Source of the DNA: Methylococcales bacterium
Lineage (GTDB): Bacteria > Pseudomonadota > Gammaproteobacteria > Methylococcales > Methylomonadaceae
Direction of reading: 5' to 3'
Length of the DNA: 64,000 nt
NCBI GenBank assembly: GCA_030654015.1
Contig: JAURYI010000058.1
Coordinates: 1-64,000, forward strand
Under the pieces are notes generated by a model. That model saw nothing but the letters and a program-made list of their open reading frames with translations, made no database searches and had not been told where the DNA came from. Position numbers and translations under genes: made by a program. Position 1 is the stretch's first letter. Every line of letters begins with the position of its first letter. Shown here piece after piece: positions 58,889-63,445 of the stretch.

Positions 58889-60955
58889 TTAAGATTGTAA
58901 TTTAGAAATATCCGCACAAGTTAAAAACTGCTCAGACAACAGATTGAGCAATGCCAAACGATTGGCGCGTAATTCCACATCATCACACATCACCATCACG
59001 CTATCAAAAAACGCATCAACATCATTACGCAACGCCGCTAAGCGGGCTAACGTCGCGCTGTAATCGTGTTGCGCAAGCAGTGGCGCAATATCAACAGCAG
59101 ATTGCTTCGCACTGCTTAATAATTGCACTTCAGCGGCTTCGACTAACGCGCCGATAGTTGCAGCGGCAGGTGATTCGGATTTTTTCAGGATATTGCGGAT
59201 GCGTTTATTGGCGGCGGCTAGGCTTTCAGCTTCGGGTAATTGGCGGAAGGCTTTTACAGCGGCTAGGCGTTGCATGAAGTCTAAGGGATCAGCGGGTTTA
59301 ACGGTCATCACTGCATCAAACTCATCGGCACTGTAGCCTTTATCTAAGCAATAGCCTTTTAAACGGTCAAACACGAAATCAACTACCGCTGTTTCGGTAT
59401 TTTCCACGTCAAAGCTGTGCGTGAATAGCGACAATGAAAATTCGATAACCTTGCGAATATCCAGCGTTAAATCATTTTCAATCAGTGTGCGTAATGAACC
59501 CAACGCGGCACGGCGTAAGGCATAGGGGTCTTTATCGCCCGTGGGAATCAAACCTGCACTAAAAATACCTGTCAGCGTGTCGATTTTTTCGGCAATCGCT
59601 AGAATTTGTCCTGTGGTACTGCTCGCCGTTGGACTGCCTGATTGTTTAGGAAAATACTGTTCTTCCAATGCCCACGCCACTTCGCTGGCTTCACCTTCTG
59701 CTAAGGCATAATAACGCCCCATGATGCCCTGTAAATTGCCAAATTCACCGACCATTGAAGTCAATAAATCGGCTTTCGCTAATAACGCGGCACGTTTTGC
59801 CAGTTCTACATCGGCATTTAAATGCTGAGCAATAAATTCAGCCAGTTTAATCACGCGGTGGGTTTTATCTGCCACTGTGCCGAGTTTTTCTTGAAACACG
59901 ATGTTCGATAAACTCAACACCCGTTCAGCTAACGTTTGCTTGCGGTCTTGATTCCAGAAAAATTCGGCATCCGCTAAACGCGGTGTTACCACGCGCTCAT
60001 TGCCTTGTTGTATGGATTCAGGGCGCGTGCTTTCGATATTACTAAAGGTAATAAAATGCGCCAACAAACCGCCGTCGGCATTTTTCACAGGAAAATATTT
60101 TTGATTAGTCTGCATGGTGGTAATCAACACTTCCGCAGGCAATGCCAAAAAGCGGTCATGAAAACCGCCTGTAATCGGCACAGGAAATTCATTCAGCGCG
60201 GCGATTTCTTCTAATAAATCGGCTTCAATATGCGCGATACCGCCGACATTTGCCGCAGCAGATGTTGCCGCGTCTTTAATAATGGCTTTACGTTGTTCAA
60301 TATCAGCAATGACTTTGCCTTGCGTGTACAAAATATCCGCGTAATTTTCAGGCTTATCAATGCTGACAGAATGCGGCGCGTGAAAACGATGTCCTTGTGT
60401 AGTCGCGCCCGTTTGCAAGCCTAAAATTTCCGTTTCAATGACTTTATCGCCATACAGTAACACCGCCCAATGCACAGGACGGACAAATTCAGTGGTAAAA
60501 CTACCCCAACGCATCCGTTTAGCAATCGGCAGATTGGCAATACTGGTGCGAATAATATCGGCAATCAGCTCTTCAGTATTCTGCCCTTTAACGGCTTGCG
60601 TATAAGACAGCCATTCGCCTTTATCGGTTTTCAAGCGTTCCAATTGGTCAAATGTCGTACCGCAACTGGTCGCAAAGCCTAACGCCGCTTTACTTGGGCT
60701 TCCGTCTGGTGCAAATGCCGCTTGTATCGCAGGGCCACGTTTTTCAACCGTTTTATCAGGTTGTGAACTGGCAAGGTTTTCAATAAACACCGCTAAACGT
60801 CTGGGGGTGCAGTAGGCTTTACTGGCAGTAAAACCCAATTCAGCGGCGTTTAAACCCTGCACGATGCCATCTAATAAGGCATTGCTGAGTTTTAATAAAG
60901 TTTTAGGGGGAAGTTCTTCTGAACCTAATTCAAAAAGTAAATGTTGTTGGGTCAC
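58889..60955 (-). CDS. glyS: Glycyl-tRNA synthetase beta subunit (GTG start)
   Basis: LLFELGSEELPPK; MRWGSFTTEFVRPVHW. Confidence 0.97.
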   Translation of the reverse strand: MTQQHLLFELGSEELPPKTLLKLSNALLDGIVQGLNAAELGFTASKAYCTPRRLAVFIENLASSQPDKTVEKRGPAIQAAFAPDGSPSKAALGFATSCGTTFDQLERLKTDKGEWLSYTQAVKGQNTEELIADIIRTSIANLPIAKRMRWGSFTTEFVRPVHWAVLLYGDKVIETEILGLQTGATTQGHRFHAPHSVSIDKPENYADILYTQGKVIADIEQRKAIIKDAATSAAANVGGIAHIEADLLEEIAALNEFPVPITGGFHDRFLALPAEVLITTMQTNQKYFPVKNADGGLLAHFITFSNIESTRPESIQQGNERVVTPRLADAEFFWNQDRKQTLAERVLSLSNIVFQEKLGTVADKTHRVIKLAEFIAQHLNADVELAKRAALLAKADLLTSMVGEFGNLQGIMGRYYALAEGEASEVAWALEEQYFPKQSGSPTASSTTGQILAIAEKIDTLTGIFSAGLIPTGDKDPYALRRAALGSLRTLIENDLTLDIRKVIEFSLSLFTHSFDVENTETAVVDFVFDRLKGYCLDKGYSADEFDAVMTVKPADPLDFMQRLAAVKAFRQLPEAESLAAANKRIRNILKKSESPAAATIGALVEAAEVQLLSSAKQSAVDIAPLLAQHDYSATLARLAALRNDVDAFFDSVMVMCDDVELRANRLALLNLLSEQFLTCADISKLQS

Positions 60956-61503
60956 GATGCGTTGCCTATATTTATTAATATTGTTTTGTCTGCTTTGTAA
61001 GGATTCTTAATTAAATAATCTGTCCATGCAAATAACAGTGTTATACCTTGAGCGTTATTTTCCTTTAAAGCTCTAAATAAGGATTTAAATCTGTAATCAT
61101 CTTTGCTAGTAGCGGGTTTTGACTGTTTTTTAAGTTCTTCGATATTATTTGAAAGATTATAATCTTCCAGAGATAAATTAACTTGTAGACATTCAGCTAG
61201 TAACCATTTTTCAAGCACTGGATGTAGTATTAGATAATGATGTTTTTTTGGATGTAGTTTATGTCTATATAGCTCTACATTATATTTAACGGTTACTAAT
61301 TCAAATTCATTTAAATAAGGTGGAGCTTTTTTATCTTTGTCTAAAATACCTACAGCGAAATCATCAATCAATTTTTTACTTTGCATTGCCTTTGTTACAG
61401 ACGTACAGCATTTTTGATGGTTGTAACCTATTTTTGTTGGCAACAAAGTTTCCATTAAATTCGTATCGAGAAAACACTCAGGAAGAATATGATTATCCAT
61501 CAT
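60952..61503 (-). CDS. Small protein with TOPRIM-like acidic residues, partner of the upstream ATPase
   Basis: CFLDTNLMETLLP ... FAVGILDKDKKAPPYLNEFELV; start overlaps the ATPase stop (ATGATGGATAA), stop overlaps the glyS start (GTGA). Confidence 0.6.
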   Translation of the reverse strand: MMDNHILPECFLDTNLMETLLPTKIGYNHQKCCTSVTKAMQSKKLIDDFAVGILDKDKKAPPYLNEFELVTVKYNVELYRHKLHPKKHHYLILHPVLEKWLLAECLQVNLSLEDYNLSNNIEELKKQSKPATSKDDYRFKSLFRALKENNAQGITLLFAWTDYLIKNPYKADKTILINIGNAS

Positions 61504-62527
61504 GACGCGTAAATCGCTCATAATTAAAAAACACATCTATACCATAATCATATACTTCATTCACTTCATCATCCGTTAAACGATTAATAACCGTTTGCCC
61601 GTCTTTAAAATCAGCGATAAAAATCGCTAATTCTTTGCGTGTCTCTTCTGTTTCTAAAAAATCATTCAATACATAAGGACTATGCGTAGCAATGAAAAAC
61701 TGATTGCTAGTTGAATTAATGACATCTTGAGTGAAGTGGGCAATGTAGGGCGGAAAACAATGCGCTTCGGGTTCTTCAAATAGAAGAATTGAATCTTTAT
61801 TTGAAGCGATAGCTGTTTTGAAAAAAATTACTCTTTGTAAAGTATCTGCTATTGAATGGTAGGGTAATAAAAAAACAGCTCCGCCACTTATTTCTTTCAT
61901 TACTTTTAAAGAGTCGCTGGTTTTATCAAAAACAAGCTTTAATCCGTAATCTGAAAACAAATTTGAAATTTCTTTTTTTAAGTTTGGAAGCGTTTGAATT
62001 ATATTAAATAAATTTCCTCCAAATGGAGAAATTAAATTTGTAATATTTTGTGAATGATAATCAAAGTTTGAAATAAATTTATATTGTTTGACATTGTCTT
62101 CAAATAACTCATCATTATAATACATACTTATATATAATTTATCATCTACCTCTATATCCACAATGGTATAATCGCCTAAAAGAGGATTATCTAAATTTTG
62201 TTTGCTTATTAAGCAATGGAGATCTTGAGAAAGTTCTTTAATATTTTTTTTTAGACTTAGGTAGATTGAATAATCATTTGTTTTTATGCCAATTTCTTCT
62301 TTTGTGTTTCCTTCAAAAAATAACTCTACAAGAGAATCTACACGAATAAAGTCATTCAATTTAAAATCATCATTTAAACCAAATAACCCAATCGCCTCCA
62401 AAATATTAGATTTTCCAACATTCGGCTTACCAATTAACAAATTAATCCGTTTACAATCGCTTAAAGTGACATCTTTAAGCGATTTAAAATTGGTAATTTG
62501 TACGGATTTAAAAAAGTGATTATTCAC
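61493..62527 (-). CDS. AAA family (OLD/ABC-like) ATPase
   Basis: Walker A LIGKPNVGKSNILEAIG; Walker B ILLFEEPEAHCFPPY; H-loop FIATHSPYVLND. Confidence 0.9.
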   Translation of the reverse strand: MNNHFFKSVQITNFKSLKDVTLSDCKRINLLIGKPNVGKSNILEAIGLFGLNDDFKLNDFIRVDSLVELFFEGNTKEEIGIKTNDYSIYLSLKKNIKELSQDLHCLISKQNLDNPLLGDYTIVDIEVDDKLYISMYYNDELFEDNVKQYKFISNFDYHSQNITNLISPFGGNLFNIIQTLPNLKKEISNLFSDYGLKLVFDKTSDSLKVMKEISGGAVFLLPYHSIADTLQRVIFFKTAIASNKDSILLFEEPEAHCFPPYIAHFTQDVINSTSNQFFIATHSPYVLNDFLETEETRKELAIFIADFKDGQTVINRLTDDEVNEVYDYGIDVFFNYERFTRHDG

Positions 62528-62539
62528 GAAATAAACCGT

Positions 62540-63445
62540 TTAATTTTGACACATCGGAAAACCCAGCGATTCGCGGCGGGCGTAGTAGGCTTCGGCGACG
62601 GCTCTTGATAGGGTTCTGACTCTTAGAATGTAACGCTGGCGTTCGGTGACGGAGATGGCGTTGCGGGCATCTAATAGGTTGAAGGTGTGCGAGGCTTTTA
62701 GCACCATTTCATACGCGGGTAGCGGTAGGTCTGAGGCGATGAGTTTTTGGCATTCGGCTTCGTAGGTGTTGAAACACTCGAATAGGAAGTCTACGTTGGC
62801 GTGGTCGAAGTTGAAATGCGACATTTCGACTTCGTTTTGGTGGAATACGTCGCCATAGGTGACGATGCCGTGCGGGGTGCGTGTCCACACTAAGTCATAG
62901 ACGCTGCTGACACCCTGCATATACATGGCTAGGCGTTCTAAGCCGTAGGTGATTTCGCCTGTGATGGGACGGCATTCTAAGCCGCCAACTTGTTGAAAGT
63001 AGGTGAATTGGGTGACTTCCATGCCGTTGAGCCAGACTTCCCAGCCTAAACCCCACGCGCCTAGTGTGGGCGATTCCCAGTTGTCTTCAACAAAACGAAT
63101 GTCATGTTCCAGTAGGTCAAAACCCAAGACGCGCAATGAACCTAAATACAATTCCTGAATGTTGTCAGGTGAGGGTTTTAACATCACTTGGTATTGGTAG
63201 TAATGTTGTAGGCGGTTAGGGTTTTCACCAAAACGCCCATCGGTTGGACGGCGTGAGGGTTGGACGTAAGCGGCGTTCCAAGGCTCAGGGCCTATCGCAC
63301 GCAGGAAGGTGGCAGGGTGAAATGTACCTGCGCCGACTTCTTGATCCAGTGGTTGTAAAAGTACACAGCCTTGTTCTGCCCAGTAGGCTTGCAGGGCGAG
63401 GATAAGACCTTGAAAGGTGGTTAAATCATAGAGAGTATTGGACAC
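62540..63445 (-). CDS. glyQ: Glycyl-tRNA synthetase alpha subunit
   Basis: [47 protein letters not shown]. Confidence 0.98.

Follow-up and report, generated by a model that had tools for sequence, protein, structure and literature searches.

In the genome of a Methylococcales bacterium (GenBank assembly GCA_030654015.1; 3.66 Mb in 141 contigs), a cassette of two genes lies between glyQ and glyS, which encode the alpha and beta subunits of glycyl-tRNA synthetase (GlyRS). One gene encodes an ABC ATPase of 344 amino acids and the other a partner of 182 or 183 amino acids, a predicted TOPRIM nuclease. The cassette is found in what we call the window, the whole stretch of 64,000 nucleotides that was analysed (contig JAURYI010000058.1, positions 1 to 64,000). 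We think that this pair, here called type A, is probably an immune module of the OLD type that is split over two genes, with defence as the best reading of its role. All four genes lie on the (-) strand and are read in the same direction. The glyQ gene (62540..63445; Pfam PF02091, E 4.6e-150) is followed, after a gap of 12 bp (62528..62539), by the GTG start of the ATPase gene (61493..62527). The stop of the ATPase gene overlaps the start of the TOPRIM gene (ATGATGGATAA, 61493..61503), which spans 60952..61500 and encodes 182 amino acids, or 183 when the ATG at 61503 is used as the start. Its stop codon in turn overlaps the GTG start of glyS (58889..60955; homologues in 99 of 101 genomes) in a GTGA (60952..60955), an overlap that is also present in loci L011, L012, L014, L015, and L016. 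The original prediction, made from the letters of the window, had described this arrangement correctly and had stated that glyQ and glyS are normally adjacent. They are indeed direct neighbours in most of the approximately 100 relatives surveyed. The G+C content of the cassette is 29-30%, compared to 51% for glyQ and 46% for glyS. In other genera, and also in genomes consisting of a single contig, glyQ and glyS flank the same two genes, again with junctions that are short or overlap, and the arrangement is therefore not a matter of chance. Judging by the named relatives of the cassette, its host is one of the methane-oxidising Methylococcales, and type A is also carried by the cultivable Methylovulum miyakonense HT12.

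The partner protein belongs to a family that sequence searches do not place. No Pfam or NCBIfam model matched the protein of the window, a comparison of all 71 family members with Pfam and PADLOC gave scattered weak matches only, and a sequence search of solved structures yielded nothing convincing. An AlphaFold2 model built with the alignment of the 71 homologues has a predicted local distance difference test score (pLDDT) of 95.2. When the Foldseek candidates for this model were re-aligned with VIA-align, the first places went to class 2 OLD proteins, through their C-terminal TOPRIM regions (6nk8, Z 8.6; 6njv, Z 8.4; 146 of 182 residues), with GajA (8x5i, Z 6.0), PARIS AriB (Z 5.7 for 8ux9 and 5.0 for 8v46), and retron Eco2 (Z 5.2) among the next matches. 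This agrees with the TOPRIM fold that had been proposed for the small protein. The two-metal site of class 2 OLD consists of E400, E404, D455, D457, T506, E508, and K562 (PMC6755086). Based on order, spacing, conservation, and fold, we propose that E8 and D12 (E-x3-D, 61465..61479) are the equivalents of E400 and E404, D54 and D56 (DxD, 61333..61341) those of D455 and D457, E97 (61210..61212) that of the metal-B ligand E508, and K128 (61117..61119) that of the catalytic K562. E8, D54, and D56, which supply the conserved glutamate after beta-1 and the DxD expected of a TOPRIM nuclease, are present in 71 of 71 homologues, position 12 is D in 70 and E in one, position 97 is E in 66 and D in 5, and K128 is kept in 69. 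The order of these residues and the spacing between the first glutamate and the next acid agree with the class 2 OLD site (PMC6755086); T506 has no clear equivalent. The acidic residues are thus conserved, and the DxD of the originally predicted TOPRIM signature stands. The glutamate named with it, in METLLP, does not: this residue is E17, which is E in just 60 of the 71 homologues, and the catalytic-type glutamate is E8 in a PEC motif. Apart from these residues, H88 is invariant in the family and C9, H28, C32, and H80 are nearly so (window positions 61405-61476 and 61237-61239), which may indicate an extra metal site.

The ATPase has an ABC/RecF/Rad50-like head of the OLD type. It matches AAA_15 (PF13175, 2.1e-16) and AAA_21 (PF13304, 1.4e-13), and its AlphaFold2 model (pLDDT 89.9) resembles SMC/Rad50 heads (Z 17-19), GajA (Z 17.2), and TsOLD (Z 16.7). 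Among 73 homologues, the Walker A motif (GKPNVGKS, amino acids 33-40, 62408..62431) has invariant P35, N36, G38, K39, and S40, the Walker B motif (FEEPE, amino acids 250-254, 61766..61780) has invariant E251, E252, and E254, and the switch or H-loop (THSPYVL, amino acids 281-287, 61667..61687) has invariant T281, H282, and S283. The centre of the protein (approximately amino acids 50-215, 61883..62380, most variable at 85-165) is very different in this respect, with only 12-30% identity between relatives whose TOPRIM proteins are 80-98% identical. In loci L019 (from Crenothrix sp. D3) and L028, for example, the TOPRIM proteins are 98% identical and the ends of the ATPases 90-100%, and the middle parts of the ATPases share 12-30%; the centre of the L019 ATPase is closer to that of L023 than to that of L028. 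Such a pattern suggests that a recognition region is being exchanged or is diversifying rapidly, as would be expected for a sensor, and we consider the centre a putative sensor. The type B ATPases described below show the same variable-centre pattern. For pairs with 65-99% TOPRIM identity, the ratio of identity in the variable part to that in the core was on average 0.29 in Methylococcales (15 pairs) versus 0.79 in Bacteroidota and others (28 pairs), a difference for which the p-value of 1e-7 is indicative only, as the pairs have sequences in common.

Our survey of the glyQ-glyS junction covered 201 genomes from the family of the host; genomes in which a contig break hides the junction do not enter the count of occupied slots. 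Type A is present in 27 of these genomes and absent from 174. It lies beside glyS in 26 of the 27, although G032 and G319, both counted among the 26, have one gene or a gap the size of a gene in between. The 27th copy (L016:5001-6768, the same as L136) follows hisD, has a broken ATPase gene, and is trailed by a 5' fragment of glyS of 70 amino acids; it is a cassette that has moved or else the product of an assembly join. A second kind of pair, type B, consists of a different ATPase, resembling HEC-01A, and a TOPRIM-like protein of about 180 amino acids, which occurs in two subtypes (L095:274-1900, L093, L097, and L127-L135). It was found in 15 of the 201 genomes, always towards the glyS end of the slot and in G001 as a remnant. 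Neither Pfam nor PADLOC gave a match for its small protein, and hhalign found no relation between the small proteins of types A and B; we call it TOPRIM-like only, because this is based on its E...DxD...ExW...K pattern. Genomes with both types have the order glyQ-B-A-glyS. The slots of G006 and G022 contain a third, PARIS-like pair, type C (L094:211-2204 and L096), of which both proteins match the PARIS AriAB model (1.5e-32 and 6.1e-6, tested on G006). Thus, about 38 of the 40 occupied slots hold an ATPase-TOPRIM pair from one of three different families, and elsewhere in the 201 genomes types A and B do not occur, except for the relocated copy with its glyS fragment. Other genes are found in the slot as well: a single UPF0149/SEC-C protein in G056, a Bro-N protein, and in G002 a lone protein of 602 amino acids, probably a coiled-coil, with a weak V-SNARE_C match only (L092:252-2060).

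Most relatives have an empty slot, and where it is occupied its content turns over. Within the genus of the window, where glyS is 88-98% identical, the slot holds the type A pair of the window, a divergent type A (G003 and G007), type B (G005), type C (G006), or the 602-amino-acid gene (G002). Between the window and Crenothrix sp. D3, glyQ is 99% and glyS 96% identical, compared to 47% for the TOPRIM protein. Over 78 pairs, the identity of the ATPase does not track that of glyS (Spearman -0.15) and that of the TOPRIM protein does so weakly (0.23). In L023, the last 15 bp of the TOPRIM gene of another cassette (GGCAACTTATCGTGA, as in L014) lie between the present cassette and glyS, and we read this remnant as a scar of cassette replacement. 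These sequence comparisons show horizontal exchange of the ATPase-TOPRIM unit at one operon junction. The cassette was originally described as hard-wired into the tRNA-synthetase operon; it is indeed embedded there, but for the lineage as a whole the term is too strong.

The two genes also stay together over a much wider range. In a search of 84,980 species genomes, a full-length TOPRIM gene lies directly downstream of the ATPase gene, mostly overlapping it, in 70 of the best 80 ATPase loci, which were picked through ATPase matches; in the remaining 10 it is truncated or missing. In Bacteroidota, type A is found between nuoF and nuoG, parE and parC, and phoH and purC (flanks confirmed by Pfam, one example each). 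Other copies stand alone, often behind an apparent helix-turn-helix (HTH) gene, as judged by eye, and some of these adjoin type I restriction (REase_I), AbiE (AbiEi/AbiEii), or methyltransferase genes. Searches of phages, plasmids, and viral contigs gave one archaeal pleolipovirus, one partial match to a Parabacteroides plasmid, and one weak viral contig, and in the collections searched the cassette is not typically borne by plasmids or phages. The pleolipovirus is GahPV1 of Geoglobus, whose gp15-gp16 form a type A pair beside winged-HTH genes (L010:5364-6805); the virus may use it against competitors.

The near-perfect fidelity to one site in Methylococcales and the recombination scar in L023 would fit a homing-like selfish element, in which an unoccupied glyQ-glyS junction is cut by the TOPRIM nuclease and repair then copies the cassette into it. 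The same site is, however, common to three different families, in Bacteroidota type A lies at other sites, most relatives still have an empty site, and homologous recombination through the flanks accounts for the exchange without any site-specific cutting, so we regard homing as most improbable. It is also quite unlikely that the two genes are an addiction pair similar to toxin-antitoxin systems, maintained mainly because cells that lose it are killed, and lacking a viral trigger. The genes do overlap, and the ATPase could plausibly hold a toxic TOPRIM nuclease in check, but addiction offers little to a cassette with a stable chromosomal site within an essential operon, and the variable centre of the ATPase points to an external, changing target. 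The TOPRIM gene has been lost from some loci that retain the ATPase; because the loci were found via the ATPase, such losses are a biased and unfair test.

We prefer a role in conflict or defence because the unit is horizontally exchanged, its putative sensor is hypervariable, a PARIS-like pair uses its slot too, and restriction or AbiE genes adjoin some of the copies. In an immune module of this kind, the ATPase would keep the TOPRIM protein inactive until its variable centre meets and recognises a viral component, after which an ATP-dependent rearrangement would free or activate the metal-dependent nuclease. This enzyme could then cut DNA, as class 2 OLD proteins do, or tRNA, as PARIS AriB does, and infection would be aborted. 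As the nearest structures are those of class 2 OLD, DNA is slightly favoured as the substrate; tRNA is also a possible substrate, since tRNA is what AriB, likewise a TOPRIM protein paired with an ABC ATPase, cleaves (PMC12409363). The cassette may have spread by recombination via the conserved glyQ and glyS flanks. It would depend on the transcription of the host operon instead of having its own regulator, and it may be protected from loss by its position upstream of glyS, which in the source genome starts within the TOPRIM stop codon.

The tRNA cleavage by AriB, together with the fact that a synthetase operon is common to three ATPase-TOPRIM families, could also mean that the pair regulates GlyRS or glycyl-tRNA, or acts as a translation-quality factor, with the TOPRIM protein acting on tRNA and the location reflecting this function. 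The OLD family also includes a housekeeping protein: Cran1 of Sulfolobales works in the cell cycle and not in defence (PMC12796447). We nevertheless consider such a function very unlikely. As the Bacteroidota copies lie outside tRNA-related operons, at nuoF-nuoG, parE-parC, or phoH-purC or standing alone, the glyQ-glyS site does not seem to have been chosen for a tRNA function. Moreover, the great majority of the family genomes manage without type A, the content of the slot swaps between near-identical hosts, and a hypervariable centre is ill-suited to housekeeping. For the immune module itself, Cran1 is one of several points that weigh against our interpretation. The hypervariability of the ATPase centre is strong in Methylococcales but weak in the Bacteroidota copies. 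Plain Foldseek against the PDB gave no significant E-value for the TOPRIM model, and its top rows were BcsB and STING with TM-scores of at most 0.30; the claim of a TOPRIM fold is based on the VIA-align re-alignment and the residue conservation.

Compared with known systems, the pair is best described as a split OLD/PARIS-like pair. With class 2 OLD, including Gabija GajA, it shares the combination of an ABC ATPase and a TOPRIM domain and the set of E-x3-E/D, DxD, E, and K residues, and class 2 OLD is the best fold match of the small protein. In class 2 OLD the two parts are fused, whereas in the window and its relatives they are separate genes, and the TOPRIM protein of the window has no significant match to a sequence family. 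Unlike in Gabija, no gene for a UvrD-like helicase (GajB) follows the cassette; glyS or an unrelated gene lies downstream. PARIS (AriA-AriB, class 4 OLD), which cleaves tRNA when it senses an anti-restriction protein, has adjacent but separate ATPase and TOPRIM genes, as type A does, and AriB is among the structural matches listed above. However, the TOPRIM protein of the window has no Pfam or PADLOC match to AriB (DUF4435-type), the PARIS-like type C pair in the same slot is a different family from type A, and AriA is not clearly the top model for the ATPase. The scores of the PADLOC models lie no more than a few orders of magnitude apart (ATPase-Toprim_I-B, 5.1e-18; AriA, 1.3e-17; PDC-M38A, 5.3e-17; GajA, 1.3e-16; HEC-01A, 7.7e-15), and for this reason the ATPase is not assignable to one system by its sequence. 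The two-gene PADLOC candidate system HEC-01 is similar in its layout, and HEC-01B is the sole PADLOC match of the TOPRIM protein, but this match is not significant (E 0.035-0.039; 1 of 71 members), HEC-01A is not the top model for the ATPase, and the type B ATPase matches HEC-01A better (1.5e-27). The PARIS/OLD-like pair that had been predicted at the outset thus holds as regards an OLD-like ATPase, a TOPRIM fold, and a full set of OLD-type metal-site residues, while membership of PARIS is not established by sequence, given comparable scores for OLD, PARIS, Gabija, and HEC. Gp15-gp16 of GahPV1 are the same two-gene unit; the ATPase is 37-39% and the small protein 23% identical, with E8, D12, D54, D56, and E97 kept. 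They differ in that their genes belong to an archaeal virus and have winged-HTH genes as neighbours, that the small protein has 149 amino acids, and that they are not embedded in an operon.

The combination of an ABC ATPase and a TOPRIM domain is already known. What sets this pair apart is that its TOPRIM protein is a family of its own for which Pfam has no model, that it is embedded between the subunits of essential enzymes, that three ATPase-TOPRIM families have one slot in common, and that the ATPase centre is hypervariable. In the openly licensed literature we found no report of defence modules in glyQ-glyS or between the subunits of essential operons, although they may have been described elsewhere. 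The usual places to look for defence genes are islands and mobile elements. Should the pair prove antiviral, systems of this kind will be missed by any search that passes over core operons, and the location suggests that immune genes can be kept by wiring them into an operon that the cell cannot lose. Near-identical chassis with different sensors, such as L019 and L028, form a natural series with which to ask where in an OLD-type ATPase the virus is recognised.

A broader view would be that embedding is a general strategy of split OLD systems, in which ATPase-TOPRIM pairs of different families come, by convergence, to lie where two subunit genes of an essential enzyme meet (GlyRS, topoisomerase IV, and complex I), the sensor ATPase is swapped like an immune allele, and the host operon provides expression, prevents loss, and possibly has its own output monitored. 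We regard this as speculative and rather unlikely. A considerably stronger possibility, even if we do not quite favour it, is that the module is immune but glyQ-glyS is simply a permissive junction without a meaning of its own, where any insert that spares the operon survives. That the slot also takes Bro-N, UPF0149/SEC-C, and 602-amino-acid proteins argues for such permissiveness; that nearly all occupied slots hold pairs from the three families, and that in the 201 genomes types A and B are confined to this slot apart from the one relocated copy, argues against it. The nuoF-nuoG junction of Chitinophagaceae, which has type A in two genomes, likewise takes other inserts. We had considered nuoF-nuoG as a slot exclusive to these modules and rejected this, as other small genes occupy it too. 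In Chitinophagaceae (L109-L126) its content is variable and includes PDDEXK_3 (GxxExxY-type) nucleases in either orientation, four-helix proteins, and glycosyltransferases. For parE-parC, a cassette-sized interval is seen, among the matches listed, only in the type A genome that was used as the search centre. Type A was also found between nuoF and nuoG in L074, a locus that is assigned to Phycisphaerales and has Bacteroidota-like nuo genes. The same locus carries a second, different ATPase and TOPRIM-like pair, with a PDC-M38A/AbiLi-like ATPase (L074:1705-3623), between the apparent end of nuoE and nuoF.

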